The position numbers were made by a program, and so were the translations under genes. A DNA stretch of 64,000 bases from Nautilus pompilius (lineage: Eukaryota; Mollusca; Cephalopoda; Nautilida; Nautilidae), in assembly GCA_018389105.1 (NCBI GenBank), contig JACATO010001443.1:124001-188000 (forward strand), in the 5' to 3' direction. Position 1 is the stretch's first letter; each line of letters starts with the position of its first letter. The notes beneath the pieces are model-generated. The model searched no databases. It saw only the letters and a program-made list of their open reading frames with translations, and was not told where the DNA came from. Shown here in pieces: positions 3,301 through 60,848 of this stretch.

Positions 3301-6300
3301 CACTTTAACACAGGCCTTGGTACAACTGCTTGGTTGCTGGTAAACTATAACTTGCATACAAATTTCCACGTATCCCTCATTTTTTATAGTTGTCAGTTCT
3401 CCTTTCCGAAGGTCTTGGAGAGCAAGGTGGTTGTCGTCTTTATTATGTGCAGCAATTTAAGATGCAGACCTCATCCTGTTATTTGCATGGGAAGGGAGAA
3501 GGGCTTCAAAGGCTGGCTTAGTGAAGGAAACCTTTTGCCTGATTTCATGCACTGGAATATATTTAATGACATTTGGATGTGCCTGGCTTCATCCACATCT
3601 TTTTGCATTTCATTTTGTGGAAATAGAATAACAGTATCACCAAAATGTGTCGTGCTGATACAACAGCATTCTTGGCACTGGTGTGCATACAATGCAGGAT
3701 GAGCCTTGTTTTTTCCACCTCATGGTTTGCTTGTAGCTGATATCCTTGGATGTCTTTGCTTCATCCTCTTTCCTATAAATCTACCAGCACCTGCTAGTGT
3801 TTTGTCTTGAAGACCATTTATGATCAGATGGTTTGAGAAGCATGCTAGGTCTGACTAGATTTCAAATTATGTCATAAGGTCATCAAAAAAAATTTTGTCT
3901 TGGGGGAGTGGTTATACCTGGCTCATGGACTATGAAGTAGTTGCTGCTGTTATAGAATCATGACCTTATGATGTGCCATAAAGGAGTCCATCGCATTTAG
4001 ATTGTTAGTAAATGATGCAGAGATTAGAGGATACCAGGGTTGACCATTTTAGATTTATGACTGGATCCATAATTGCATTGTTCTAAGTATGGAACAAGAA
4101 CATGCATTGTAGTATATTATTATATTATATACATTAGAATTTGTTGTTCCGCATACTCAAAAATTTCAAAAGTTGGCAAACCACTTTTTCCAAAGGATTT
4201 GCATAGCTAGGTATTTTGTTTCAGATGTATTGAAAATAGTCCTATTCTGATGTGTTCAGTGTGTTTGTGGCATCAGAAACACAGTACTGGGTACAAAGAT
4301 CATGGTTTTTATCCTCCTCCTGTTTAGAAGTTATGAGCATTTGAGATTTCACAAGATAGTCAATTTGTTTTCTTTTCGCCACCTTAAAACATTGAAAGTG
4401 TGGCAAACAAAATATTAATTTTTAGCATGCCAAAATCCTTTGGAAAAAGAGGCCTGCCAGCTTTTCCTTAAAAAGTCCTCCTAAATTCACATTTCTGACA
4501 TTCCGAGTCTAAGATCATATGTGATATTTATGGACAATATCAACAAAAAAGCAAAGATAATAGATTTTGCCTTGCCCCATAGTCTGTAGTGTTGGAGGAG
4601 AAAAAATGACTAACTCATACAGGTGCATCTCAAAAAATTTAGAATATCATCGAAGAGTTCAATATTTTCTGTCAGTTATTTCAGAAAGTGAAAATTGTAT
4701 ATATTCTAGACTAATTACATGTAAACTAAAATGGTTCAAGCATTTTTTAATTTTAATTTTGATAATTACGCCTACAGCTAAAAAAAAAATAGAAAAAACA
4801 TATCTCAAAATATTAGAATATTCCATTTTGAGTTTAAGTAAATCACTATTTATTCAGTATAAATACCATGAATATCTCAGTCTGGTTCAGTGTACACAAC
4901 CACAATCATGGGGAAGACTGCTGACTTGACAGTTGTCCAGAAGACACTCATTGACACCCTCCAAAAGGAGGGTAAACCACAGAAGGTCATTGCTAAAAGG
5001 CTGGCTGTTCGCAGAGTGCTGTATCAAAGCATATTCATGGAAAGTTGACTGGAAGGGAAAAGTGTGGTAGGAAAAGGTGCACAAGCGAGAGGGATGACCG
5101 CAGCCTTGAGAGGATTGTCAAGCAAAGCCGATTCAATAACTTGGGGGAGTTTCACAAGGAGTGGACTGAGACTGGAGTCTGTGCATCAAGAGCCACCACG
5201 CACAGACGTGTCCAGGAAATGGGCTACAAGTGTCACATTCCTAGTGTCAAGTGACTCCTGAACCAGAGACACTGCCAGAAGCATCTTACTTGGGCCAAGG
5301 AGTAAAAGAATTGGACTGTTGCTCAGTGGTCCAAAGTTCTCTTTTCAGATGAAAGTAAATTTTGCATTTCATTTGGAAATCAAGGTCCCACAGTCTGGAG
5401 GAAGAGTGGAGAGGCACAGAATCCAAGTTGCTTGAAGTCCAGTGTGAAGTTTCCACAGTCATTGATGATTTGAGATGCCATGTTGTCTGCTGTTGTTGGT
5501 CCACTGTTTTATCAAGTCCAAAGTCAATGCAGCCATCTACCAGGAGATTTTAGAGCACTTCATGCTTCCGTGTGCTGACAAGCTTTATGGAGATGCGGAT
5601 TTCCTTTTCCAGCAGGACTTGGCTCCTGCCCAGTGCCAAAACTACTAGTAATTGGTTTGCTGACCATGGTATTACTGTGCTTGATTGGCCAGCCAACTTG
5701 CCTGACCTGAACCCCATAGATTCTCTATCGGGTATTATCAAGAGTAAGATGAGAAACACCAGACCCAACAATACAGACGAGCTTAAGGCCGCTATCAAAG
5801 CAACCTGGGCTTCCATAACACCTCAGCAGTGCCACAGGCTGATCACCTCCATGCCATGCCGCATTGATGCAGTGATTCGTGCAAAAGAAGCCCAACCAAG
5901 TATTGAGTGCATAAATTAACATACTTTTCAGAAGTTCAACATTTCTATATTATAAATAATTTTTTTTTAAATTGATCTTATGAAATATTCTAATATTTTG
6001 AGATAGTGGATTTTTGATTTTCATGAGCTGTAAGCCGTAATCATCAAAATTAAAACAAAAGGCTTGAAATATTTCACTTTGTGTAATGAATCTAGAATAT
6101 ATGAAAGTTTCACTGTTTGAATTAAATTACAGAAGAAAATTAACTCTTCCACGATAGACTAATTTTTTGAGATGCACGTGTAGACCTGAAGATGGGAAAT
6201 GGAAAATTATGGGAGTGATAGCAGTTGTGATCAGCATCTTGTGGCCACTGGTTATGCAACTTGAAGATAAATGAGACTTTCTGGCTAGATCTACAGAAAG

Positions 6301-28600: not shown

Positions 28601-31600
28601 TTGAATTATTTATTAAAATGGAGTGACACTAAATGGGAAAATGTAGTTTCAGAAAATAATCTGGAGGTAATTATTAACAAAAATATCAAACAAAGATGTA
28701 CTTCAGCTGCAAACATAGCAAATAGAATGTCAGCAGTAATTAACTAGATCAAATAAAAAAGTAGAGAGCTTCTGTTTGTGACACACCTTGTTGTGCTGTC
28801 CAGGTACAGAGTCTTTATTTGAAAAACAACATGGATTTATTAGATAGAGTTCAGCAAATCTTAAGCATTTGGAATGCATTAAATAACTTTAAAGTATTAG
28901 ATCTGTGAACTTTAAACTGTGGACATTTAAGAGGAAGCCTAGCTGAAATTTTCAGAATGATTAAGGGTTTTGAATGTGTGGACAGGGGAAAAGTTTTCCT
29001 GGCTATCTACAGTTAATAGGGTTCATAATTACATATTAACTAAGATTGGAGTACAGTTAGATATCAGAAAATATTTTTTTCCTTTTAGTTAGAGAATAAG
29101 TTACCAGTGAATGCAGTTAATGATAGAATTAGTCTATTTAAGAACCATTCTGATGGATGATGATGATGATGATGATGAGGATGATGATGATGATGAGAGA
29201 GAAGGGTGCATTTGGGGATTTAAAAAAAAATTTTTTTTTCTGCCTACTAATTTCTTAAGGAAGAAAAGAAAGGAAACTTATCCATGCTATTTTATTATAC
29301 AGCACACTAATTGTATACACACATGAGGTTAGTGTACCAAAATTAACAAAAGCAAAGTAAATTAAATCAAAAAAATAAAGTGAAAAGAAAAGAGGAGACT
29401 TAAAAATTAAAACGAAGCCTTCCTCCATTCTTATAAGATAAGTTGGTTGCCTGGTGACCTTGTCACTTGATGTACTTTTTGCAATCCTGGGTGCATCAGC
29501 CAAAATGGCTCCTTGCTGCCTCGTTTTTTTTAACTGTTAAAGTTAATCTGCCAATAATTTTCAATCACATGGCAACATTTCTTAAATAAAGTGATCTCTC
29601 TCTCTCATCCTGGCTGTGAGATCTTCTAGGGTACAAAGCAACATTGTAGTCACTTAAAAGACTATGCATTTATTATACCTCAGTCAATAGGCAGTCATCA
29701 CATTGAAGGGAGAGAGAGGGGAAGCATAAGATATTCAAGCACATAACTAACTCAGCACTAAGGGTCTTCACTGTTTCTTGGGTGAAATTTCTGTGTGGGG
29801 AATTTCCTTTTTATTATGGCAAAGAGTTTCTTATAAACATTGTATCTTCACCTGTTAGTCCACAAAAATCAAAGCAACCAATAAGTCAGACGATTTAGAC
29901 ATTTGTGACTGTAGTTTATGCACTCTCCACCTTTTCCTTTATCAAAAAGGTTATCCCCAGACATGGCCATCTGCAGGACTTTTCCAGGGAGAGGTAAATG
30001 ACCAAAAGAATGTCTGCAGGATAGATAGAGGGGTAAAGGAGGAATTGATAGAATAAGATCAAGTGCAGAGAAATGTGCCTAGCAGTGAAAGTATGTTTTT
30101 ACTTAGAAATATTTCTTGTGATTTATTTAGAATTTCTTAAAATTTATTTTTTGAGTTTAGTATATTTCCTTTGCTATCGTGCTACTCCATCATTGCTCAA
30201 AATAACGAAACAAAGGAAAAAAAAGCCATTTTTATTCAACATTACACTTTCACCCTTAACATTCTAGGGGGGGGGGGTGGCCTCCTATTGCCCCACACCA
30301 CTTGTTGATGCCCATGCCAGAGCAGTTTGAGGCTTCTGTAAAGAACACTAATTACACTTTGATACCGATACTGTTGTCTACTGCACTTTATGAAATTCTG
30401 TAATTTGGAAAGACTGAATCTGACTTACCAAGTTCACCTGGAGTAAGCTGGCTGCTGCTTTTATAGATGGTGGCTGGAGATCGATTTGTGAGAAGAAAAG
30501 AGTAGACCAATAACGCTTCCTTGAAGCTCTCATCCTCAGCACGATCGACCAGCAAGGACAGAACTCCCCTGTTGTTAGCAACATTTTTGAAGTACAGGAT
30601 TCTTGAGAGCTGCATGAGATAAGTGTTTCGTTGATTTTTGTACACAGTCCACGCTCGTATCCCAATCAGACCTGTCACACCTGTTATCAGCAACATCCAA
30701 TCAAATGTTATGTGGGCGAGCACAGTAACCAGCTTTGCTATGATGCCAGCTAATGCAATGCTGACTGATGTTGCCAGGATTCCTTTGTCAAGCGGCTTCA
30801 TCTTAATCTTGCCATCTGGCAGCATCATTTCTAGAGCTTCCACTGGCACTTCTTTGAAAGCTTTCAGCATCAACTTAGAGTCCTTCTTCAGTCTGATAGC
30901 AACTACTACGCGTTTGTAGTACTGCACTGCCTTAGGGAGCGGAGTTTTCTGAATTCGGTTGAGTAGATAGTGGTACCAATGGATGTTTGCAGCAGGTGTT
31001 TCCTTACCTAGTGCCCAAAACTGCAAAACATCATAGTTGTCAATATTGACACTAACCTGAAAAAAAAAAAGATGATAAAAAATGCTGTTGGCTAAGTATT
31101 AGCTTAGTAATTACAAAGTGGCAGGAAGACAATACTATACCTTCAAAAGCAATCCTTTGGCATGCAACTGACACATTGATGATAGCATGACAGCGTATTT
31201 AAGTGATGCATGCTGATTGTCTCAGATCTCATTTGCTGTTTTAATTGTGTAAGGTCTTTCTACAACAGCAATTCTTTCCCATGGGAAATTATTATTAAAA
31301 CAAAGGAAAACCTTGATATGTGTTCAAATGAAATGCTTCATAATATAGTCATGTGATGATATAGTACATTGTGATTGGTTGTCAAGTAAGCAATCAGAAA
31401 GTGCCACACCTGCACAAGTCTAAGCAGTGATATCATTGTAGTGTGGTGAATGTGTGGTAAATACTATGGCTCCTAGAAAGGAAATGCCACCTAAGCATAT
31501 AGAAATCAGTCTTAGCTAGTGAAAGTTACTCTGTCTGGCAGATTGCAGCCAAGCTTAGTGTTTTAAAAGCTCTATGCAACACTCTGAGAAGGATAGGCAA

Positions 31601-34600: not shown

Positions 34601-37600
34601 AATCAAAAATAACCATGTTGTCAATAGTTAATGTCTGTCTGTTCACTAACAAAATCAGCAATTCCTCCCCTGTCATCCCGACAGCAGATTATTCATCTTG
34701 TTTACCATTACCGTTAAACTCAAATGACCAATGTCTTGGAACAGCCTACCAATTCTCTTGGTCATTGTGCTACCTGCTAGATGTGCATCTGCTATCATGC
34801 CTCTTTTGAACGCTGTTATGTCTTTGCCTTTATCAGTCAGATTGACTGCAAATATGCTTGTCCAAGTCATATACAACACTGCAGGACTCACCTTTCACAT
34901 CGAGTTGCCATTCACAGAAAGCGAAGAATTTATTCAGGCTATTCCAAACACTTCAGTATTAGAATTAATTTTTACAACTGTGCTGCAGAAAACATTTCCC
35001 ATTTGACAAAAAAAGAAAGTAAGGAGACTTGGCAGTGACAATTTTAAATTACTTGCACATGAATGGATGAATTAAAGAAACTTTCCTAAAACTTCTATTT
35101 TGATAGCTGGTAAGCATGCCAGTGATAGTTCTTTTGCATAGACACAGAGTATTATAACAACACTTCCATTTCCCAAAGTACATTTTAAAAAAATGAATCA
35201 AAGAATACATGCACAGAACAAAGTAACATTTTTTTTTACAATTTCCGTAGATCTAAGGAATTAATAATTTAAGAGAAGCTCATTCACCGATAGACATCTT
35301 TATCTTCTTCCAACACCTTGAGCTGTTTATTGGTGCTGGTGGCTGCTGAATACCTCAATATATGTGATGTCCTACTGGCACTGATCAAGGTTCTACAAAT
35401 TCTTTTATACAAGGGGTGACTACAGCTCCGGCCATAACAACATACCTGGGCCATCTGCCAACAGAAACCCTGAAATGAGGAGGGTGAGAGAGAAAAAAAA
35501 AACATGGAATGACAACAAAAAAGCTGCCTGAATACTTCAAGTGCCTAAACAAAGCACAAGCAGATACAAATACAGAAACTAGAATAAAACAATATAAAGT
35601 TGAAAAGGGCTGCTGAAGCTTTAAGGAAGGGAACAGAATGTATCTGCTAGGTAGCATATTTACAAAATAATTTTAAATATCTAGCACTGATAACCGAGTT
35701 ACTCATTTCATAGACACACTTCCTCAGATTATGACTTTGACATTATCTTTAGGGGTCTTGCTGATCCTCTCTCTTTGCAATGTGTACACCTCATTTGCAA
35801 CTGTGGTTCTTGTTGATAATTAAATTTGAATGGGTTAACTGTTTGTTTAATACTATACCAGATTGTGAGTTAAACAAAACCTTGCAGGGTTCACTTTATT
35901 AAGAAATTTATTTTCAAAAAGGTTTATTGTTATAACATTATTTTCTTAGAAACTATTTGCCAAACTTTAAACAGCTGTTACACTGATAACACTGGTCAAC
36001 AAATTTTTATTTTTTTTCTTTGGCAGACCATCTAGGAGTGTTTTCTGGGGTTTTGAAGGTCGCTGATTACGAATATAACATTGGTTTTGTCTGATTGGCT
36101 CTAGTTTAGAAGATATTGATAGCCTCAAATAAGCCTAAACTGCTAAAATTCTCCCTGAAATATTCTTCAATAGAGCAGCAGTAAATAATAATTTTCTGAT
36201 ATTATTGAATCATTATAATGATTATAATCATTATAATGATTCAATAATATCAGAAAATACATAATAATTATTATGTATGTAGTGTTTTTAAAAACAGTAT
36301 TTAAGAATTTTCTTTTTAATTCTTTTCTTTTTTATTCCAGAGTTGAAAATGAGTTCTTCTAAAAGACGTTGTAGATATGAACCGGATGTCTTTTGTTACA
36401 TCTGTGGACAGTATATGATGGCACAACAAAAGAGGAATATTACAGACTTTGTCAAGAGGGCGTACAAAGCATACTTCGATATGAAACTAGGTGACCAAGA
36501 TAAGTCTTGGGCCCCACATATGGTGTGCAAAACCTGTGTAGAAAGTCTCCGCGGTTGGACCAATGGTAAGCTGAAGTTGAAGTTTTGCTGTACCATGGTG
36601 TGGAGAGAGCCCAAGAATCATTTTGATGACTGCTACTTCTGTATCAATGACATGACGGGGTTTAACAAGCACAAGAAAGCAAATTGGCAGTATCCGAGCC
36701 TGGATTCTGCTATCCGTCCTGTTGCGCACTCTGAGGATCTACCTGTGCCTGTTTTCACCAGTCTGCCTGAAATCGATGAAACCGAAGAGATTCCAGCTGA
36801 TCTTTCAATATCAAGTGGTGATAGCTGTAGTGACTATGAGAGAACCCTCAAATGGCCCTCAGCTTTTCAATCAATCTGAACTTAATGACCTAGTGCGAGA
36901 CCTTTGTTTGTCGAAGGAGCAGTCTGAAGTTCTTGCATCACGACTCCAAGAGAAAAACATTCTTGATTCTGGCACAAAAAGTAACATACTATAGGACAAG
37001 GGAAGGCAGCTTGCTTCGTTTCTTTTCTAAAGAAGATGACCTGATCTTTTGTAATGACGTTTCTGCACTTCTTAACTGCATGGGGATCTCGTCATATGAC
37101 CCAGCAGATTGGCGTCTCTTTATAGATAGCTCGAAAGCAAGTCTAAAAGTTGTACTTTTGCATAATGGCAATAAGTTTGCTCCTGTACCACTTGGCCATT
37201 CTACCAAGATGAAAGAAGAGTATGATGGTATCCAATTTGTTCTTGAAAAGCTAAATTACAACACTCATAAATGGCTGATTTGTGTGGACTTGAAAATGGT
37301 GAATTTTCTGCTTGGTCAGCAAAGTGGGTACACAAAGTATCCCTGCTTTCTTTGTTTGTGGGATAGCAGAGCAAGAATCCAGCACTGGAGAAGGGAGAAC
37401 TGGCCAGAACGAGAAAGTCTCGAAGTCGGCACAGCCAACGTCATCAATGAGCCTTTGGTACCCAGGGATAGAATCATCTTCCCTCCATTGCACATAAAAC
37501 TAGGGCTCATGAAGCAGTTTGTTAAGGCGTTGAACAAAGATGGGGATTGCTTCAAGTACATATGCAGGCAATTTCCAGGTCTTTCCATCGAAAAAGCTAA

Positions 37601-40579
37601 AGGTGGCATCTTCGATGGACCTCAGATTCGAACGCTCATGAGGGATTCTGACTTCACTAATCATATGAACATGGTTGAGTTAAATGCTTGGGTGTCCTTC
37701 ACAGATGTAGTGACAAACTTTTTGGGAAATCACAAAGCTGACAATTACAAGCAATTGGTCCGTAAGATGCTTACTGCATACGAAAAACTAGGGGCAAATG
37801 TGAGCATCAAAGTTCATTTCTTGTTTAGCCACCTCGACAGATTTCCTGGTAATCTTGGTGATTACAGTGAGGAGCAAGGAGAGAGATTCCATCAAGACAT
37901 CAAAACAATGGAAGAGAGGTATCAAGGCAAATGGGATGAGCACATGATGGCAGACTACTGCTGGAACCTTTGAGAGAGACTGCCCGAAAGTTGCTCACAA
38001 GCGAAAATCGTATAAACGTCAATTTCACTTTTGTGAATAAAATATTGTTTTGTGTGTTCATTGTAACTAAGAATCTAGTGTATAATAATGCTTTGCATTA
38101 ATTTATGATATATAACTGATTATGTAAATGTTTTTTTCCCTTGGAGAATTAAAATTCAGCAAATTTTTAGCAAATTTTTTGTATATTCTCGAAATATATG
38201 AAAAGTGTTCATTTATTAATAAATGAAATGATGTGTTATATCTAACTTAACTTGTTAGATTGAGATTTTACACTGTCTTTGTGGTTTGGATTATCATAAA
38301 AATCAATATCTGACATTTTTGCACTATTTAGCCGTTTTTTGTACGTTTAGTTATGGTCGCGAATGGGTGATTTCAGACGAACGACCCCCCTGTGATATCT
38401 CCAAAACTAGAGCCAACTTGAAAAAACAAATGTCAGATTCGGATTCAGCGCCCTTGAAAACCCCAGAAACCAGTCTCACTTTTCCTGCCAAAAATATTGT
38501 GTTGACCAGTGTAATATACACAAGAATTTTCAAACAAAAGAAATAAAGGCTAAGTCAACTGCAATCAGTATGGGTTTAGGTGGACTAACTAGTCAAAGTT
38601 TCTAAATGACACGAATGCTTTAGTTCTAGATTTTACTGGAGCTTTCAGAAATATTTTTTTGAATAAGATATTGGTAAAAAATAAGATCTCAGCCATTTGA
38701 TCTAGATTATGAGATATTTAACTAACAAATCAGTCTGTCTGTCTGCAAATTGCATAGCTCATTATGAGCTGTCGCTGACCAAAGAGACAATTATTCTTAG
38801 TGTTGCATCTTCTTGGGCTGAGAAATATAGGTAATGATACTAAAATGCATAAAGCCAACAACTGGAATTATGTAATGCATTTATAATCAGATTTGTAGAC
38901 TCATCAGACTGTTCATTTAAATAACAGACAGTTGACAACACAAGTGACTTTTCATCAATGATGATTTGAGCAATTAGTTAGTTATAATTATACAAAAATA
39001 TGGCATGGTTATAAATAGCAGTGTGTAATGCATATTGCAAAGCTGTGCTTGGCTCATTTAAATAAGAAAAAAGAATATAGTTTAATAAATATAAGCATCT
39101 AATAAAGACATTAGTCATTGTATATTAGATAATGTATAATCTCCATTAATCATCCCTCTGTATTTTTTTTCACTACACAAATACAAACCAAGTTTCTATT
39201 ATTTTTAATTTAAAAATAACAGTATATTATACAAAATATATTCATATTAATAATAACTGTTTGATGAACCTGGATTGCATGTCTACTTCAGTATTAATGT
39301 TTAACCACTTAAGAATCATGTGACAAATGTCATTAGGATCTGGAGTAAGTTCATTGATTTATTTCATATCTAAATTGTGGATTTAAAAACATCTTCAAAC
39401 CATTTTCTTAAGTTTTAACTGTCAACAACACATACCATAGAGAATGTCTGAAATCACAGTTTAGCTTATTTTGAAATGGCACAGTGCTTCATCGGAGATA
39501 ATTGCTTTTATTTCATGGGGAAAAGGCTAGTTAACTCAGACCACCCAATGCTAACCCTAATTCATTTGAAAGAAAATATCTTCCAAAAGCCACTTTGAAC
39601 CAAACCCTGGCAAAATCTTCAAAATTAGAAAACAGAAAATGTGCTTAGAGAGACCAGTAATAACACCATAAACAATAGAAACTGGGCACCAGCTTGAAAC
39701 TTTAATGAACTAGGCCACAATCTTTCCATAGATATTCCACTACTTTGGACACAGAAAAAGGGAGAGATCAATGACAGTCATTCAAATCTAGAAACAAATG
39801 TATTTCTCACCAAAAACTATAGAGTTTATTGGCGACAATCCTTCAACAGGACTCGGTCCATTGGGGGGGGGGGCTAGGCTTCAGTTCTGAAAAGTCGTAT
39901 TAGGGTCCTGTTAGAAACGGCGCACATGTAACCCTGGAATTATTTGCTGAACTGATATTGATATCTGTAGAAGCTTTGGAGTTATTCACGTCCCTATTTC
40001 GAGCGCTCACTTCACCGAGCATCACGCTTCAGTGCACGGGTCCACTCTCTCTCTCTCGGTTTTCAAGATGAATTAAAGCACATTTTAAATTCATTAATTC
40101 ACTTACTGCAGTCAGGTGAACAAAAAGGCTGGTTATGTTACAGGAAGGTCGGGACAATGTCATTCGAGAAACACGGGTGGGTATTCAGGCGCAATTAGTG
40201 TTGTTTTTATTTTTGTTTTTTTTTTCCTTTTCTTTTTAAAAAAAAAAGACATACAGGTTCGGGTGAGATCCCCCCCCCTGAAAGGATGTCAGTCCCGTTT
40301 CAGTTCTCCAGCCTACAATAATCAAACAAAGGGGGAAGAGGTCCGCCGCCCTGGCTACTACCTGTAGCAGGAAGAACCCGGCTATCATCTCCTTATTGCT
40401 TCAGCATTCAAAAACCTAAAAAAATAATTAACAACAACAACAACAAAAGCATTCGGCTGCATTATAAATCCTTAAACAACTCATCGCAAGTAAACACGGT
40501 CGTGTACCTGGCAGGTTTTCACGCGAAAAGAACAGTTTTTAACAATTCCCGAGTAATTCCAACGCAAGGGAGCCGCCAT
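25610..40579 (-). CDS. TMEM143: TMEM143-like protein (DUF3754), complete, six exons
   Basis: Exons in transcript order: 40508-40579, 35288-35469, 33790-33949, 32711-32905, 30429-31056, 25610-25926. All borders fit GT-AG and phases agree, giving 1554 bp (517 residues plus stop); human TMEM143 is about 459. The start is ATG at 40579 (MAAPLRWNY), followed by a basic, mitochondrial-type N-terminus. The DUF3754 core is in the fifth exon (PLPKAVQYYKRVVVAIR, SKLMLKAFKEVPVEALEMML, KMKPLDKGIL). It is followed by two hydrophobic segments (about ILATSVSIALAGIIAKLVTV and FDWMLLITGVTGLIG). The C-terminus is acidic/basic (EEEFKEEDRKAKK). In mammals the protein is mitochondrial and its biochemical role is not established. 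It shares its start region head-to-head with GINS2. Introns host a LINE fragment, a Tc1 fossil and the 35990-38511 transposon. Confidence 0.87.
27950..29200 (+). mobile_element. CR1/L2-like non-LTR retrotransposon, 3' part, decayed
   Basis: Fragments appear in the order of a reverse transcriptase: AAGTDANFPQEY (like GPDGIPPRLLK) near 28070; EWKAVNVTLIYKK near 28145 (like EWKxANVTPIFKK); a decayed S-V-P-Q-G-S-V-L-G-P motif near 28440; QLADDT near 28530 (the FADDT catalytic region, Phe lost); ENNLEVIINKN near 28660; LLDRVQQ near 28835; and LRGSLAEIFRMIKGFECVD near 28930-28980. The element ends in a GAT repeat at about 29154-29196, like the simple-repeat tails of this clade. The 5' part is missing, as expected from truncated reverse transcription. 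Multiple stops are present. Confidence 0.8.
29154..29196 (+). repeat. (GAT)n microsatellite, LINE tail
   Basis: About 13 GAT/GAG units lie directly downstream of the decayed CR1/L2-like coding region. The position suggests it is the element's 3' tail and not an independent microsatellite. Confidence 0.85.
31250..32560 (+). mobile_element. decayed Tc1-like transposon
   Basis: The + strand has a putative start near 31465 (MAPRKEMPPK). IKIIFTDE with FGNNQREFV follows near 31715-31765 (first Asp), then FQYDSDRKHAVNMMKNYLEH near 31986-32045 (second Asp), and LPAQSPDLN near 32078-32105, where the following Pro-Ile-Glu is lost. The outer flanks look like diverged inverted repeats (TGATATCAT... near 31427 versus the complement of sequence near 32465-32500), but exact ends could not be set. 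Stops and frameshifts abound. It lies antisense in TMEM143-like intron 4. Confidence 0.75.
36191..36258. repeat. perfect 68-bp palindrome inside the transposon
   Basis: The 34 bases on each side of the centre (36224/36225) are exact reverse complements. The arms contain the smaller palindrome CATTATAATG twice. It is AT-rich and could form a cruciform or hairpin. It lies between the left terminal repeat and the start codon of the element's gene. Confidence 0.95.
36349..38039 (+). pseudogene. orphan transposon-borne protein with Cys-rich N-terminus, frameshifted
   Basis: Reading starts at ATG 36349 (MSSSKRRCRYEPDVFCYICG). Three frames follow one another: 36349 to about 36850, about 36845 to 36985, and about 36975 to 37973. 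A further shift near 37965 restores a Lys/Arg-rich tail ending at a TAA at 38037-38039. The N-terminus carries paired cysteines (CYICG, CKTC and CYFC), probably zinc-binding. The central part has RLFIDSSKASLKVVLLHNGN, WLICVDLKMVNFLLGQQSG, the CFLCLWDSR pair and PPLHIKLGLMKQF. The end has HFLFSHLDRFP and EEQGERFHQDIKTMEERY. I recall many arthropod and hydra proteins annotated as uncharacterized with this architecture. Spaced Asp, Cys-Cys, His and Glu blocks would suit an RNase-H-like transposase, but that is inference. An acceptor-like pyrimidine tract ending CAG directly precedes the start. Confidence 0.75.
38515..40507 (-). other. rest of TMEM143-like intron 1
   Basis: No coding feature was recognised. 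The stretch is AT-rich with a G run at about 39863-39871, a CTCT run near 40047, a poly-T/poly-A pair near 40210-40248 and a C run near 40271. The open frames at 40116-40367 and 38286-38546 show no family resemblance. Confidence 0.6.
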
Positions 40580-46100: not shown

Positions 46101-47425
46101 GCAGCAGCAACAACGACCCCCCCCGGCCAAACCCCGATCGTCGTGACTCTCTCTCTTAAACGCAGCGACAGATGCCCCCTCCCCCCCCCGGGACTCGTTT
46201 TTGTTGTTGTTGTTGTTTTCCTTCCAGTGGTGTCTAATTCCATCGCCCCCTCCCCCACCAGACACAGCTCACAGTCGGTCTCCCCCTTGTTCGTCCCCAC
46301 CCCCACCAGACAAACGGCTCACAGTCGGTCTCCCCCCTCCCCCACCCCCACCGGACAAACGGCTCACAGTCGGTCTCCCCCCTCCCCCCTTGCCTGTTTG
46401 CTGTTTACTTTTCGATGTCGACCGGTGTTGGAACCGCATCGGGTTAGAATCATCCCCTCAGCAGACAAAGGACGGACCCCCGCTCTCTGTCCGAACCACA
46501 GCCTGACGTTGATCTTCTGATGGTCGTCTGTTTTATGCAAAAACAGATAAACAACAACAACAACAACAACAACATTCCAAGATCATAATGGTTTTTGTTT
46601 GTTTTTAAAAGTCTTTGTGGGCTGGGATTTGCGGTTCGAATCGCTCTGTCGCCGCGGGGTTAAGTCAGGCTTGGGCCAGTCCGGTTATCGAGGGCTGCTT
46701 ATCTCTTAAGTGTCCCACCCGGAGCCGTCGATATTGGGGCTCACGGCACTTCTCCCCCCCCTCCAGCTTACTAAAGTAGATAAGGAGGGGCTATTATTAT
46801 TCCTTCCTCGCTTTCTCCCCCCCCCCTGCCTCTCTGCAGGCCCCCATCTCTCAGAAAGGCGATCAATCATGGAGACTTTTCCTTCCCAGCATCCGAATAT
46901 ACGAAGGAGGGTTCCGCGTATAGACCCCGGAACAGTAGTAGGCGGCGGCTGCTGTCAGACCCTAGGGTAGGTCTGCCGAGGAAAAGCTTGTCCAGAGACG
47001 GAACCCTTCCCGATGTACTAACGCTGTTCACTAACTACAACAACTGACTCCAGGGTGCCCTAGGAATTAACCCCCCCCCCCCACATCAAGCCAATGAATG
47101 TGCGATTTATTTTCCGGCAAACTGAAATAATTAAAAAAAAAAAATAGTCTGACTAAATTTGAAGGTGGGGAGGGGTCTAATCTGCACGGACCCCACCCTC
47201 CAACGTATACCACCCCCCCCCCAGTGGGAGAGTGAAAAGCATTGAGTTGTCATTTCTCCCCATCCATGAAAAAGCCCCGATCATGTGTGGTAATCCTCGT
47301 CCGGCCAACTTTGCTGGGGCCTTCTGTTGTCTGATCACCCAACAGGGTACAGAATTAGTTCAGGTTTTTAAATGTTCGGTTGTTGTTACCTTCTTCACCC
47401 GGAAGGAAAACATTTCTTTCTTTCT

Positions 47426-48528
47426 TTGTGTGTTGTGTGTTGTGTATGTGTGTCTGTCTGTGTGTGTGTTGTATGTCTGTCTGTGTGTGTGTGTGTGTTG
47501 TATTTTGGTGTGTGTGTGCACGTGTGTGTCTATCTGTATGTGTGTGTGTTGCACGTGTGTTTGTCTGTTTGTGTGTGTGTGTTTGTGTGTTGTGTTTGTA
47601 TGTTTGTGTGTGTGTGTGCACGTGTGTCTGTCTGTATGTGTGTGTGTGTGCACGTGGTTTGTCTGTTTGTGTGTGTGGTTTGTATGTTTGTGTGTGTGTT
47701 TGTATGTTTGTGTGTGTGTGTGCACGTGTGTTTGTATGTTTGTGTGTGTGTGTTTTTGTGTGTGTGTGTTTGTATGTTTGGTGTGTGTGTGCACGTGTGT
47801 TGTCTGTATGTGTGTGTGTGTAACGTGTGTTTGTCTGTTGTGTGTGTGTGTTTGTGTGTGTGTTTTTGTATGTTTGTGTGTGTGTGTGTGTCTGTCTGTA
47901 TGTGTGTGTGTGTGCACGTGTGTCTGTATGTTTGTGTGTGTTGTTTTTGTATGTGTGCAGTGTGTCTGTCTGTTGTATGTGTGTGTTTGTATGTTTGTGT
48001 GTGTGTGTGTGCACGTGTGTCTGTCTGTCTGTTTGTATGTGTGTGTTGTTTTTGTATGTGTGTGTGTGCACGTGTGTCTGTCTGTTTGTATGTGTGTGTT
48101 TGTGTGTGTGTTTTTGTATGTGTGTATGTGCACGTGTGTCTGTCTGTTTGTATGTGTGTGTTTGTATGTTTGTTTGTGTGTGTGTTTTTGTATGTGTGTG
48201 TGTGCACGTGTGTCTGTCTGCTTGTATGTGTGTGTTTGTGTGTGTGTTTTTGTATGTGTGTGTGTGCACGTGTGTCTGTCTGTTTGCACGTGTGTTGTCT
48301 GTTTGTCTGTGCACGTGTGTGTCTGTCTGTTGTGTGTGTGTGTGTGTGTCTGTCTGTTTGTGTGTGTGTTTGTCGTGTGTGTGCATGTGTGTCTGTCTGT
48401 TTGTATGTGTTGTGTTTGTCTGTCTGTTTGTGTGTGTTTATTCTGTCTGTTTGTATGTGTATCTGTGTTTGTCTGTCTGTTTGTGTGTGTGTGTGTCTTG
48501 TTTGTATGTTGACGTGTGTGTGTGTTTA
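47426..48528. repeat. 1.1 kb compound TG repeat with regularly embedded CACGTG
   Basis: Almost pure alternating TG/TCTG/TTTG sequence. A higher-order motif recurs: a GTGTGTGCACGTGTGT core followed by CTGTCTGTTTGTATG. The palindromic E-box CACGTG occurs at least a dozen times. All long open frames here (Cys/Val-rich on +, His/Thr-rich on -) result from lack of stop codons in the repeat and are not genes. Confidence 0.97.
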
Positions 48529-48935
48529 CCAGGTGAAAAAAAAAATAAAAACTGAATCAAGTAAACTATTGAGAATCTATAATGGCTAAAAGATATAATA
48601 TTTGAATGGAAATAAGTTTTAGGCTATGAATGCTTCAAGGAGAATGGCCAAACTTATCCATTATCTTGTTAATACATTAAGAAATGTTTCTTCTGCAGGC
48701 TAACTTCTCTTGGTGTTGGGTTTAGAGGCCATGCTGAGTAACAAGACTTACTTAGTGCATTGTTGTAAACTTCAGTGTGTGTGTGTGTGTGTGTTAATTG
48801 AGGATCCTCATCTGATCATATTTAGTTTATAAGGCAAATATCAGATTAATATTTTACCACATATCATCCATTTTGATAATTATAAATAATACTTGATTTT
48901 AAAAGAAAAAATTTTGCTTTTTTAGTCATGTTTTC

Positions 48936-50569: not shown

Positions 50570-53500
50570 ATGGGATTTCACAGCCCTGTGAAGATTGCAC
50601 TGATCATAGGAACAGTAATTGTGTTTGGCATTATGCAAGTGTTTAGCTACCTTGGCCAACATCCAGCAGCAAGCTCAGGTGAGTTATGTTTCATGTTTAC
50701 CCTTATTTATAACAAATTTTTACCAACATATTAAAGAGAACAACTTTAAAACTAAGTTTATTAACTTGTTGCTGAAAAACTAATTAGTGTGTTTCATTAA
50801 AATAGCAAACACCATAGCTACTATGCATCATTTTGTACAGTGTTTAGATAATAAATTTATGAAAGAAGGGAGACAACTATTTTTTGTTTTTGTTTGCTGG
50901 AAAGCTGGCGATAGTTAGACAATTGCAGTGCAGAATGTGCAAACTTTAACTTAATGATTCCAAGAGAATATGAATGGAAGACTCGTTTTATTGTAAAAAA
51001 AAAAAAAATAATTGCTGACCACTGCAAAGTAACAATTTCAACAAGTAAGATTTATATCTTTCTATTATCAATACTATGCACATTTTGGTTTTGTAAAGTA
51101 ATGTGTATTTTTAGCTAATGCACACCAAGGTCATAATAAAAAAAAGAAACTTGACAGTTATATTTGGGAGGCAGCAGCCATGGGCAGACAACCCTGTATC
51201 CGTATTCACAAGTAATGGACTTAGTCATTCAACATGTAAAGAATCCTCTTTGGCTCCCAGCTATCAGAAGTTTTTTAACATAAATTAACAATTATAATCT
51301 AAGAGGCAGAATATTTCACCCATTTACTATTCCAGAAATAATCATTTGGTCATCCTATTAGGGCAAGGTTGGCCAAACCTGGTAAGAGCCACATACGATA
51401 AACTTCAGATGTTTGAGAACCCCAAGACATGAAAAAATGTTACATAAATATTAAGAAATACATGTGCGTAATAATATTTATTCATGTATGCAGTTTTAAA
51501 CTGCTAATTTGTATTAGTTTCAATAATCAAAAAGTACACATATACATACCAAATATTTTCAAAATCCTGACTGATTATTGAGAGTCTATCATATCCGGCT
51601 GATATGTTGTCAGGGCTGTACGAATTAGCTCCGTCAGGTGTTGATTTGTAAGGATTGCATGATGCTTCGACTTCACAAACTTCATAACAGTACAATGATT
51701 CACAGCCGTATATTGTGCTGAAAATCGAGATGAGTCGCACACTGGTCTTCTTTAGTTCAGGATATTTTATTTCTGGAACTTGCTTCCAGAACTCAATTGT
51801 AGACTGGGATTTATGGATCATCTTTAGACCCAGGTCCTCCTGTAATTCCATTAGTTCCATTTCCACAGCAGATGAATCTGTAACCAGAGGGCCAATAATT
51901 GGACAACCATCATTGATCACATCAACCATGAATGGATTTACAAGAAAGGCGAAGCAGGGATTCAGCTTCTGCAAGTCCTCAAACCCGGCTAGGAAATTAT
52001 CAAGCAGTCCTTGTAATTTATTTTTGTATTCTTCCAGTTTGTGATCTTTTATTTCAATATCAGGGAGTGTATTTACTCTCCTTTGGAGATTGGGAAAGTG
52101 GCTAAAGTTTCTTGACAATATGTCTCTTTGAAAAACTCTTATTCTATTCTGAAAGCTGAAAATTGTCTGAGTAAGATCAGAAACAATCCTATCTTTCCCT
52201 TGAGTGCCAAGTTGAGAGTTTGTAGATGATTCATTATATCAGTAAGGAACATTAGATCTTGCATCCATCCCTCATTTTCCAGTTGAGGATAGAATCTTTC
52301 CTTTTCTTCAAGAAAAGTAATAATATGCTCCAACCGATCCACAAACCTACTCAAGACATTGCTGGTTGACAGCCACCTCACACTGCAGTAGAAAGAGACA
52401 CCACTGGGTTTATCTTCAAGCTTCAGTTCTTCAATAAAATTTTTGAACTGTTGGTGGGTCAAGCGTATGTAATTGACAATTTCAAGGACAGATTTCATAA
52501 CATCTTCATACTTAAAGTATCTGGCTGCCTGGTGCTCACAATGAGTAATGCAATGAACAGGGAGAAACTCTGGAAAGCAGGGATCACTTTTCATTAATGC
52601 AATTAATCCTGCATTTTTCCCACCATTGCAGGTGCTCCATCTGTTGCAACACTGACGAGTTTATCCAGTGGAACGTCAGCATTTGTTAAGGCTCTTTCAA
52701 GTGCATTTTTAATGTAAACAACACGAGTTGTTTCTTTTAGTGCGACTAAGTCCAACATCTCTTCTTTCACAGTTACATCAGAGGAAACATAATGAACAAA
52801 TAACACCAGTTGTGGGTTGTCTTGTATTCTGTAGATTCGTCAAGAGCTAAGCTGAATGCAAGTGAATGCTTTAAATCTTTTTGTATTTTGCCAGCAACAT
52901 CAGCACTGATCTGGGAAATATGCCTCTCTGTAATGTGGTGTGAAACTGGTGTTTGTGCTATTAGTTGCTGAAATTTTGTGTTATTTAGATCTAACACTGC
53001 AACAACTTCAGCTGTATTCTTCTTAACAAATTTGCCATCAGAATATGGGTGCTTAGCACAAGCATCATTCCACAATATAACGAAACTAGCTTCAGTCATT
53101 GTATTGTTTTCCTTACTGAACGTTGTCAACAGTGTCTGCTGGCTATTTAGTGATGATTTTAACAGTTAACTTGTTTTTCTGTAATTCTGATTTAGTTGGG
53201 TAATCAGATATAAAGTTCTTGTGATTTGTTTCATAGTGGCATTTCAAGTTACTGGCTTTGTAATGACTCAGTGACACATTGTAGATAAGACACACAGGTT
53301 TACCTCCCTTAACAGTGAATGCAAAATCTTCCTCCCACTCTGGCTTAAAATTTCTGTTTTCATCTTCATACTTTCACTTCTTACAATTTGATGATGCCAT
53401 CTTCCCTCAAAATTTTCACAGACACTTTTAATAAAATTGTGAAAAGAAACAATAAGTTCAAACACGTGGAACACGACCAAACTCTACAGTGCCCAGAATT

Positions 53501-54960
53501 ACATTAGCACCCCGCTAATTTGACTGCCTACAACACAACCACACACGCCACAGTCACACGAGCAAGCCACACCCACTAAAACTACCATTGTGAGCACTGG
53601 CTCCTACGATTCCTGTCTCAACCAACATATTTCCGCGAGCCGCACATTATTATGTCAAAGACCCGCGGTTTGGCCACCCCTGTACTAGGGTGTTTAAAGA
53701 GTCAGCTAATAACACCTAGTAGTCTGGAAGCCTGAGATGATAGAAAACAAGATAAATTAATTTACACGTTCCTTTTAATATTTTTAATATCTAAGTTAAA
53801 TCTTCTTGAACTCAACAGTTTGCTAGACTAGGTAGTTAGTCTTAATTGCTCAGTATGGTCATCATTGTAAAACCTCTGCACTCCCTTCAATCTGCCAATA
53901 GTTTCAGAAAGATAAGGGCACCAAGATTTGAATGCATGTTTTAAATGAAGTCAAGGCAAAACTTTTGAATATGGAGAAGGTTGATTGGTGTCTATGTTCT
54001 AATAGTTAATTTTCTAACAAACCTATCCTACCTACCACTTAATTATGATGTTTACGAACATTTAGATACTAGAATAATACAGCTACAATAATCACATCTT
54101 TCAGGATGTTTTTATTTATTTTATAAAAATATTTTACAGGTTTATTTAACCAAACAATTGGAGAAGTGTCCAGAAAGTACTACACAGAGATCACGCCATC
54201 CAGCTGGACTTTTACAATCTGGGCAGTATTTATCTACATCTGGCAAGCTGTGTGGCTCTTGTATGGTATTTCCACAATCTGTAAGAAGACAAAAGATGGA
54301 TATTTGTACCAGACACCATCCGTCATGCCTCCAGTCATTTACCTGGTCTTCTCCTTTAACTGTGTTTCCACAGTTATCTGGACTGTTTTGTGGACCCGTG
54401 AACATCTGTGGCCAGCACTGCTGGTAATTTTTCTACAAACCATATCTTTGTGCATCTCTCTTGCTGCTTCCTTCAAAGAGCTGCACAATGACTTGCTGGT
54501 GATGTATATAGAAGGCTTGAAAAGGGATGTATGGTTCATCCGCATCCTGGTACAAAACGGGCTGGCTTTATTCACTACTTGGTCTACCATAGTGACACTG
54601 GTCAACTTCAACATAATGATAACATATGACTGTGATGTTCCACAGGACATTTCAAGCACAGTCTCTCTCTGCATCCTGTTTGGCCTGATTGTCACTTGGT
54701 TTGTGCTGGACATTGGTGTGTTGGACAAGTACGTGCGCTACACATTCACCCCCTATGCAGGCCTCATGGTGGGTTTCACAGGGATTGTGGCCAAGAACTT
54801 CAACTTGAACACAGCTCCAAGGAACTCCATATTTTCTGCAGTTCTGTTGACCATTATTTGTGTAGCAGTTGTGGTGAAGACAATACTGATGGTATACCGC
54901 TACATTTTTCGACCAATCAAGCCACAACCAAAGTATTATGAACCAACCATTCTGGCATAG
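50570..54960 (+). CDS. multi-pass membrane protein, TspO/MBR-like, paralogue A
   Basis: Coding exons 50570-50678 and 54140-54960 (TAG). They join in phase 1 to give 309 residues. The start ATG 50570 is firm: an in-frame TAA lies 18 bases upstream, just inside the acceptor. About eight hydrophobic segments are visible: residues 8-30 (IALIIGTVIVFGIMQVF), then SWTFTIWAVFIYIWQAVWLL, VMPPVIYLVFSFNCVST, LLVIFLQTISLCISLAA, ILVQNGLALFTTWSTIVTL, VSLCILFGLIVTWFVLD, YAGLMVGFTGIVAKNF and SAVLLTIICVAVVVKTILMV. The SSWTFTIWAVFIYIWQAVWL segment recalls the Trp-rich second helix of TspO/MBR proteins, which bind porphyrins and cholesterol. The similarity is short, so function is not assigned. I recall related uncharacterised proteins in invertebrates and fish (zebrafish si:ch211-161h7.5 type). 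A hAT element lies in the intron. A polyadenylation signal AATAAA is at 56508-56513. Confidence 0.82.
51356..53690 (-). mobile_element. hAT transposon (BED/FAM200-like), complete ends, broken gene
   Basis: The element runs from 51364 to 53682. It is bordered by an 8-bp duplication, TATTAGGG (51356-51363) and TACTAGGG (53683-53690), matching at 7 of 8 positions. The termini are inverted: the left starts CAAGGTTGGCCAAACC and the right, read inward, starts CAGGGGTGGCCAAACC. Eight-base duplications and CAGGGGTGG-like ends are typical of hAT/Charlie elements. It is inserted in the intron between the two coding exons of TspO-like paralogue A, in antisense orientation. Confidence 0.93.
51504..53480 (-). 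pseudogene. hAT transposase, frameshifted into five blocks
   Basis: In transcript order: a BED-like zinc-finger region (53200-53480, CVLSTMC plus a C-x-H frame-shifted portion); 52773-53129 (FVILWNDACAKHPYSDGKFV, HSLAFSLALDEST, the first Asp block); 52603-52806 (DKLVSVATDGAPAMVGK, the second Asp); 52139-52594 (HCITHCEHQAARYFKY, then QFKNFIEELKLEDKPS); and 51504-52118 with the C-terminal dimerisation part (NPFMVDVI, VEMELMELQEDLGLK, EFWKQVPEIKYPELKK, LISIFSTIYGCESLY). This order matches FAM200/ZBED5-type hAT proteins. Frame changes between blocks and a degenerate end mean it encodes no active transposase. Confidence 0.9.
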
Positions 54961-58839: not shown

Positions 58840-60848
58840 TCACATGAGATTTTTTTTTTTTCCTGGCCAAAAGTTCATAGGCTCAGGTTGGATAGGGCAG
58901 TAGAGGTAACGGTAGACCATTAGGACAAATTTGGTCACAGTGAAAGCACTAGAAATAACCAGCAATCCCACGGAGAAGATAGAGTTTCTTGGTGCTGTAA
59001 TGATGTTAAAGTTTTTTGACACAACTCCAACAAATGCCACAATTAACACCATGTACGGAGTGACTGTGTAGCGCACGTATTTGTCCAGCAACACATTGTC
59101 CAGTACAAACCAGGCAATGATTTCCACAAACAAAATGGACAGAGAGATGGTGCTGGAAATGTCCTGACGCACATGGAAAACGTAGGTAAGCATGATGGAG
59201 AGGCAAAGAAGTGATGCTATAGATGCCCAGGTAGCAAAGAATGCAAGGCCATTCTGAACAAGGATGCGGATCAGAAAAATATCTGTCCTCAGACCTTGAT
59301 CATTCATTACTGCAAGGTAGCTGTACAATCTCTTAAAGGAAAAGTACAGGGCAACACAGAGTGTGAGTGGGGATATTGCAAGAGAGACAAAGGAAAGGCC
59401 TAGAAGTTCTCGGTCCCAAACCAACAGCCAAATGATGACAGAAATACAATTTAAAATAAACATTAAATAAATGACAGGTGGCATCACAGGTGGAGTGAAA
59501 TACAAATAGCCACAATTTGTTTTCTTACAAATGGTGGATAATCCATACAGCAACCATGCTACCTGCCATGCAAAGATGAATCCCCAGATTCCAAAAGTCC
59601 AGTCTGCTGGGGTGATTTCAATGTAATATTTGTAGGAAAGATTAGCAATTGTGTGGTTAAATAGGCCTGGAAAAAAAAAAGGAGGATAAGAAAAGTAAAT
59701 AATGACTTTACTCATACTTGATAATAAAGGTAAGTGTTTATTAATTACTGTGACACCACCAAAAATGTGAGGTAAGAGAGTTTAGTAGGTGGTATTGACG
59801 TTTAGAAACATTCTGGTTTTCATTTCTTCATTACGAACCCAGAGTTATCCCCCCCTCCCTCTTGAAATAAGGCAGGGTAAAAGAAAACTCAACAAATGAC
59901 TGTCACTGTACTGTTCCAAAAAAAAAATAAAAAAATTTTTTTCTTTTCATAACATTATCAAGTGCTTTTCAAAAAAAAATAAAACAAAAGTTAATCAAAG
60001 CAGTGATGAAATCATCCTGAATGACCTACCTAGACCGATTCGTCGAAAGAGATTTTATTATGAATGTGGAGATAACTCCTACAAAATTATCTCCCCTTCT
60101 TCTTACTGTTATTATTGTTATTATTATCATTATTATTATTGTTATTATTATTATTATTATTGTTGTTGTTATAATTTTATTATTATTGTTGTTGTTTTAT
60201 TATTATTATTATTATTATTAAACCGCTACGGATTAGAAAGTCAATTCAGGCTTGAATGACCTATCAAGATCATCATCTGGTTTACTCCCTCTCCAGGTGT
60301 GTGTGTGTGTGTGTGTGTCCCCGTCCCTCCTTTTGTATCATTAGTTTTCTGTCCACCTTCACCGCGCATTTTTTATTAGACTTTCTCTTCTAATGGAAGA
60401 GGAGCCGATCCGCAGTATTTTCAATTATTGTTTAATAAAAGTAGATACCGGTGATAGAAAGGGTGGGGGGGGCTGGTCCACACAGTCTACCAGGTGCGAG
60501 ACTTGTCCAACTTACCCCCGCTCGCTGCCGGGTTCGCTGCGAAGTAGTTGAACACCAGGGTGATCCCGTAGACGACAGCGGCCCCGACGATGAGGGAGAT
60601 TCTCGAAATATAGAAGCAGGAGTTGAGCATCTCCGGAAATCTCCTCCCTGGTAACGTAAATAGGGGGGGGGGAGAGAGAGAAAGAGAGAGACGGTTACAA
60701 CATGACAACAATGGGTGGTAGGAGGGAAGTAATATGACGGCCCGCGATGCGTTTCGTTTGCGAGATAAAGGAAAGCGGTTAAGCTGCCCGCCTCACGGTT
60801 CCATAGGGGAGAGACTTCCTTACCGAGAGTGGAGACAAAGCCGAGCAT
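58840..60848 (-). CDS. multi-pass membrane protein, TspO/MBR-like, paralogue B
   Basis: Exons in transcript order: 60824-60848 (if the upstream start is used), 60516-60647, 58840-59666. Starting at ATG 60848 gives 327 residues; starting at ATG 60630 in the second exon gives 313. The downstream start (MLNSCFYISRISLIVGAAVV) aligns with the start of paralogue A. Shared signatures in the same order include ITPADWTFGIWG, VAWLLYGLSTICKK, YFTPPVMPPVIYLMF, FLIRILVQNGLAFFATWASI, VRQDISSTIS, LDKYVRYTVTPY and NFNIITAPRNSIFSVGLL. Both genes have a phase-1 intron just before LFN-x-TI, so they arose by duplication. About eight membrane segments are visible. Function is unknown; the TspO resemblance is limited to the Trp-rich second segment. 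The C-terminus (GKKKNLM) is basic, unlike paralogue A. Confidence 0.82.
60107..60221. repeat. (TTA/TTG)n microsatellite
   Basis: TTATTA and TTGTTG units with interruptions over about 115 bases, within the intron of TspO-like paralogue B. It makes a spurious Ile/Leu/Tyr-rich frame. Confidence 0.93.

Follow-up and report, generated by a model that had tools for sequence, protein, structure and literature searches.

A very recently active DNA transposon family in Nautilus pompilius with TWA target duplications and a probable transposase with a CACTA-like motif order

The element in the window

The window, i.e. the whole 64-kb stretch of Nautilus pompilius DNA analysed here, harbours one copy of a DNA transposon with a single, broken gene (Table 1). 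The 12-mer CACTGGTCAACA is found once per orientation within these 64 kb, beginning at 35990 and, as its inverse, finishing at 38511. An imperfect inverted repeat of about 120 bp extends inwards from these ends (94 identities, 22 mismatches and 13 gap positions), and TAA is present on both flanks. An earlier, sequence-only reading had described the same inverted ends, the imperfect repeat and the TAA duplication, and all three could be confirmed in the sequence. A repeat that arose by chance was considered and ruled out: the terminal repeat reaches a local score of 61.5, none of 1,000 mononucleotide shuffles scored above 24.0, and TWA followed by CACTGGTCAACA occurs 2,346 times genome-wide compared to one occurrence of the reversed pattern, which served as control.

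Aligned to the intact copies L003 and L004, the window copy shows 2,510 identities, 3 mismatches and 10 indels, eight of one base and two of two bases. Its reading frame is broken; these indels can be assembly errors.

Further features were noticed elsewhere in the window. A decayed fragment of a DDE_3 (Tc1/mariner-type) transposase lies at 5554-5916 (+; E 3.3e-5, below the curated cut-off), and an exon with a DUF3754 domain, which probably belongs to a host gene, at 30388-31095 (-; E 1.4e-19). A long TG/CA-type microsatellite (47181-48589) gives rise to spurious long Cys/Val and Thr/His frames. Two hydrophobic frames in opposite directions (54127-54960, +; 58840-59781, -) look alike by eye and probably encode multi-pass membrane proteins; neither has a Pfam match at 1e-3.

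Table 1. Features of the transposon copy in the window. Residue numbers refer to the 562-aa protein; fractions give the loci in which a residue is present.
Feature	Position	Strand	Remarks
Left target-site duplication TAA	35987..35989	.	single TWA at the empty sites of two sister insertions
Whole DNA transposon copy	35990..38511	+	2,522 bp; ends common to 30 cut-out copies
Left terminal inverted repeat	35990..36116	+	starts with CACTGGTCAACA
68-bp perfect palindrome	36191..36258	.	upstream of the gene; also in intact copies
N-terminal part of transposase frame	36349..36879	+	C16-x2-C19 ... C60-x2-C63, C95-x2-C98; frame broken in the window copy
Catalytic core of predicted transposase	36978..37970	+	residues from K210 of the 562-aa protein
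First conserved Asp codon (D259)	37125..37127	+	14/14 loci
Second conserved Asp codon (D313)	37287..37289	+	13/14 loci
CFLC (C332-x2-C335), presumed zinc ligands	37344..37355	+	11/14 and 13/14 loci
H381 codon in PPLHIKLG	37491..37493	+	13/13 loci covered
HFLFSH (H489-x4-H494), presumed zinc ligands	37815..37832	+	14/14 and 13/14 loci
E508 / E511 in S-E-E-Q-G-E-R-F, candidate catalytic Glu	37872..37883	+	13/14 and 14/14 loci
Right terminal inverted repeat	38395..38511	-	starts with CACTGGTCAACA on the - strand
Right target-site duplication TAA	38512..38514	.	

Copies in the genome and their target sites

The genome used is a 727.6-Mb assembly of 2,558 contigs. A search with the 359-aa frame as query gave 113 scored matches among 7,147 first-look candidates, and 30 loci, located by the protein match alone, were cut out. 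The same two ends are found in all 30 loci; they are exact in 29, and the right end of L023 has two mismatches. TWA flanks all 30 on both sides and is identical on the two sides in 29 of them (17 TTA, 12 TAA), L017 having TAA and TTA. The target is mostly A-TWA-T, with the preceding A in 27/30 and the following T in 24/30 loci, a count in which L022 is mis-paired with a chance site of two mismatches.

For an empty-site test 50 insertions were compared with 87 sequences. Of the four hits that spanned an insertion point, L015 and L072 were self-matches and were left out. Uninterrupted relatives exist for two insertions: L022 matches window positions 53084-53320 (reverse strand) and L027 matches positions 720-922 of L009. 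At both paralogous empty sites TTA or TAA is present once, at the occupied sites twice, and the exact ends as well as the 3-bp duplication are therefore established. The L022 insertion sits in a paralogue of a window repeat (51504-53320, -) with frames that look hAT-like by eye and have no Pfam match at 1e-3.

The sequence-only reading had taken the window element for a DNA transposon bordered by these repeats and had proposed the comparison with an empty site in a related individual or species; the empty sites compared here are paralogues within the same genome. It had also named two observations that would speak against it, namely copies of the protein family lacking these ends, and copies which end at different points or have no 3-bp duplication. 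Both were looked for among the cut-out copies. The ends and end points are shared by all 30 (with two mismatches in L023), and the duplication is identical on the two sides in all but L017; to this extent the interpretation is supported.

Recent movement and deletion forms

Several copies are identical letter for letter. The full-length copies L003 and L004 agree over 2,516 bp and have an open 562-aa frame, four copies (L007-L010) represent one 1,740-bp deletion form, and seven (L021, L022, L025, L026, L027, L029, L030) represent a second one of 1,752 bp. In each of these 13 copies the TTA or TAA on one side agrees with that on the other, and the 300-bp flanks of identical copies are unrelated in 28 of 28 pairs (56 comparisons of 300 x 300 bases, best local score 15). 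Because letter-identical copies are found in unrelated flanks, the movement was very recent. That they are assembly or haplotype duplicates instead of recent insertions is barely conceivable in view of these flanks and duplications, even if all data come from one assembly in many contigs and many differences between copies are small indels, maybe read errors.

By its sequence, the element belongs to a cut-and-paste DNA transposon that was active very recently, with the fixed inverted ends, the duplication and the non-autonomous deletion forms of such elements. The short forms are internal deletions in which the N-terminal domain is removed and both ends are kept. Three deletion forms, of 1,752, 1,740 and 1,570 bp, have their left breakpoint inside the 68-bp palindrome, and two others, of 1,997 and 1,323 bp, have it outside. 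Microhomology (TAA) is seen at the breakpoint of the 1,752-bp form but not at that of the 1,740-bp form. That three out of five deletion forms break there suggests that a hairpin formed by the palindrome promotes internal deletion. The recent deletion forms of 1,752 bp and 1,740 bp (L021-L030) lack the N-terminal Cys domain, and their frame of about 354 aa is open and comprises the whole catalytic core; this core-only protein could be a regulator, or its frame could be open merely through youth.

The encoded protein

Residue conservation was scored over 14 loci, counting a residue as present if any aligned piece of the locus shows it and leaving out loci which do not cover the position. A key residue is missing in some of the 14 loci, several of which are broken copies. 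Besides the residues of the core (Table 1), the N-terminal cysteines are conserved (C60 in 12/12, C63 in 13/13, C95 in 12/13 and C98 in 13/13 loci), and the N-terminal Cys clusters presumably form a zinc-binding DNA-recognition domain.

Searches of Pfam, NCBIfam and PHROGs gave no match above threshold; zf-AD appears below the Pfam threshold in four of the seven members scanned (best E 0.01). The sequence-only reading had proposed profile and structure searches for an RNase-H fold with D, D, E and C-C-H positions. Residues of these kinds are conserved in sequence over the 14 loci, and the profile searches yielded no match above threshold. Among PDB chains neither sequence nor profile search found a match, the best hits (E 0.29 and 1.4) being unrelated, and two single-sequence AlphaFold2 models are of low confidence (pLDDT 34.4 and 51.2). 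Scans of viral and prokaryote contigs returned 5, 74, 51, 211 and 96 stretches that matched a search pattern, none of which was confirmed by tblastn.

Four unambiguous peptide words from the protein had no match in the literature searched. For words from the ends, no transposon paper was evident by title among the 20 best of 187 matching papers, nor did we recognise a paper on such a transposon family among the literature matches listed. The protein may belong to a family which recurs, uncharacterized, in invertebrate genomes, as the sequence-only reading had also supposed.

Related families and the association of the protein with the ends

Among the first 100 sites listed for TWA followed by CACTGGTCAACA there are 31 head-to-head pairs within 4 kb. 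The letters of the target-site duplication are concordant in 25 of the 31 and discordant in six, which are L017 and five members of an older second family. Twenty of these pairs were fetched; both ends are present in all 20, and the duplication agrees in 15. Judged by its ends, the second family accounts for 15 of the 20 fetched pairs. Its inverted repeats diverge beyond the first 12 bases, and its protein is about 49% identical (L082). A third family (L081, L088) has the ends CACTGGGGAACA and CACAGGGGAACA with TAA on both sides, and the L081 protein shows 57% identity over 572 aligned residues.

Single ends were found at several other loci: L089 (CACTGGACAACA), L083 (CACTGGGTAACA), L086 (CACAGCACAACA), L085 (one mismatch to the end of the first family, adjoining TAA) and L084 (the exact end of the first family, without TWA). 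The ends of L091 (CACTGGTCGACA) and L092 (CACTGTACAACA) both adjoin TTA. The diverged relatives range from 36 to 72% identity in aligned pieces and have variant ends. At L087 and L090 recognisable ends were looked for and none was seen; their proteins, about 36-64% identical in aligned pieces, may come from decayed copies, from copies with other ends or possibly from domesticated genes.

For the looser pattern TWA-CACWG-nnn-AACA there are 5,468 occurrences compared to 814 in the control, and the peptide GERFHQD is coded 1,851 times in the genome compared to 0 in the control. Of the latter places 100 were listed, and the sample consists of the 37 up to C29:1409400, present in both listings. Before the association with ends was counted, 11 'TAA' places (CACTGTAAAACA and the like), taken as internal sequence of the second family, were dropped. 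An end lies within 2.6 kb of 31 of the 37 sampled places, on both sides in 18, where chance would give about 4% per place. No end of the pattern scanned for lies within that distance of the other six, one of which is L091, whose end is one base off the pattern.

Because the ends are present in 30 of 30 copies found by their protein, and 31 of 37 places with the motif lie near an end, the only protein of the element is very probably its transposase. The claim of the sequence-only reading that this protein family belongs to the transposon is thereby supported, though some relatives have no recognisable ends, and we are highly confident that a transposon and its own transposase are present here. 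The protein could instead be a passenger or a captured host gene, with another transposase moving the element. Such a reading might refer to the N-terminal domain and the catalysis, both of which were deduced from sequence, and to the commonest match range in the 359-aa genome search, which corresponds to the deletion forms without the N-terminal domain. However, the intact copies L003 and L004 have no other frame of at least 100 aa on the strand of the gene, diverged proteins accompany ends of the same pattern, and the acidic and Zn-ligand residues are conserved, so that we regard a passenger as very improbable.

Proposed mechanism and significance

The 562-aa protein would bind the ends through its N-terminal Cys clusters, pair them, and then cut and join the DNA. 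Its active site would consist of D259, D313 and E508 in an RNase-H-like core which, like that of CACTA, Chapaev, Transib and RAG1, includes a C2C/H4H region that binds Zn. The TWA duplication would result from joining with a stagger of 3 bp, and the deletion forms, having kept both ends, may be moved in trans by full-length copies. We only infer the RNase-H mechanism, because the statistics of the comparison with RAG1 given below are negative and both structure models are poor.

This one animal genome contains 1,851 codings of one motif of a transposase family which the Pfam copy used does not recognise. If the family recurs elsewhere, as we suppose, mobile DNA is being listed among the host genes in gene sets. 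A transposition assay could be set up directly with the intact letter-identical copies, and the C2C/H4H pattern is relevant to the relation among CACTA, Transib and RAG1.

Comparison with known transposons

In its passages on the CMCT group, Kojima 2025 (PMC12730594) describes C(2)C and H(3-4)H between the second D and the E, and a third conserved H whose place in the chain is unspecified there. According to the same passages the ends are CA..TG in most cases, the duplications comprise 2-5 bp, and CAC..GTG ends with 3-bp duplications are taken as consistent with EnSpm (PMC12730594). The Nautilus element agrees in its ends (CACTG...CAGTG in 30/30 copies, CAC[TA]G in the variant families), in its duplication of 3 bp (29/30 copies, two empty sites) and, at the level of motifs only, in the order D-D-C2C-H-H(4)H-E with CFLC, H381 and HFLFSH. 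It differs from CACTA-EnSpm in several respects: none of the seven members scanned with Pfam matches Transposase_21, a TWA duplication lies on both sides of all 30 copies and is identical in 29, the element is short (about 2.5 kb) with one long frame, the ends are CAC[TA]G-nnn-AACA, and the two Asp are 54 residues apart. Pfam, the PDB profile search, the pairwise comparison with RAG1 and hhalign gave no significant similarity to a known CMCT member (Transposase_21, RAG1/Transib).

The statement of the sequence-only reading that the protein looks like neither CACTA nor PIF/Harbinger has to be divided. It holds for Pfam similarity, of which none was found, but the residue order and the CAC...GTG ends fit CACTA/CMCT. 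By its motifs and ends the element appears to resemble CMCT in its working and is likely a member. We consider it rather probable that it represents a CACTA-like (CMCT) lineage that has diverged and duplicates 3 bp (TWA) of its target, and the family may already be contained in Repbase or Dfam, e.g. as EnSpm.

Mouse RAG1 shows D600, D708, C727, C730, H795, H937, H942 and E962 at the expected places. For D600, D708, C727, C730, H937, H942 and E962 we assume the roles generally given to them, and H795 is described as an active-site residue in the relevant passage of PMC7204232. In both proteins the first Cys follows the second Asp at a spacing of 19 (D708-C727 in mouse RAG1), Hx4H and LH-xx-[IL]-G are common to both, and E508 (E-Q-G-E-R-F) fits RAG1 E962 (E-S-G-N-K-L) by eye. 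In contrast, the two Asp are 54 residues apart here and 108 in RAG1. The Smith-Waterman score against the RAG1 core is 41.0 and not significant (shuffles: mean 34.9, maximum 55.0). With hhalign the probability is 0.3% versus 0.1% for each of three shuffles, at a Neff of only 2.4, and a segment other than the motif is aligned. Searches of the Nautilus genome itself for RAG1 and Transposase_21 gave 0 matches; the controls gave nothing either, and the result is therefore no evidence of absence. Transib target duplications are 5 bp long, unlike the 3 bp seen here at two empty sites.

It is possible, but in our view doubtful, that the protein represents a transposase lineage of its own with superfamily rank, in which CxxC and HxxxxH resemble CMCT by convergence. 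Consistent with this are the lack of significant RAG1 similarity, the short spacing between the two Asp, and the seven members scanned, which have no match to Transposase_21 or the RAG1 catalytic Pfam profile (RAG1_imp_bd reaches E 0.16 in one, which is not significant). However, the order of the eight conserved residues, the exact spacing from the second Asp to the Cys, LH-x2-[IL]-G and the CA..TG ends all agree with CMCT, and the profile used with hhalign is shallow (Neff 2.4). We would likewise only tentatively speak of an undescribed superfamily-level lineage, still moving in Nautilus pompilius, in which a TWA target of Harbinger type goes together with ends and a Zn-ligand pattern of CACTA type; its transposase would have escaped the family libraries and may explain many 'uncharacterized' animal genes.

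A TWA target duplication is classical for PIF/Harbinger, and its presence in 29 of 30 copies is the only likeness to that group (PHIS). A PIF/Harbinger element with a diverged Harbinger transposase is nevertheless improbable, as neither DDE_Tnp_4 nor another Harbinger profile of Pfam matches the fragments and members scanned, the intact copies have one long frame, no Myb/SANT match and no second Myb/SANT protein were found, and the ends are CAC...GTG. The protein differs as well: C2C and H4H motifs are, to our knowledge, foreign to Harbinger.

The CACTA-like (CMCT) placement preferred here also invites comparison with SmTRC1 and the animal TRC elements, which are of CACTA type. As described in the passages of PMC1636069 concerned with them, these elements differ in a 2-bp duplication, a Transposase_21 domain, CCC ends and alternative splicing (PMC1636069). 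Points of likeness are a CXXC motif, which lies in the same domain as the second Asp, a motif L/M-H-x3-L-G, one residue longer than L-H-x2-L-G here, and an Aedes element with the ends CCCAGTCAAC (PMC1636069).
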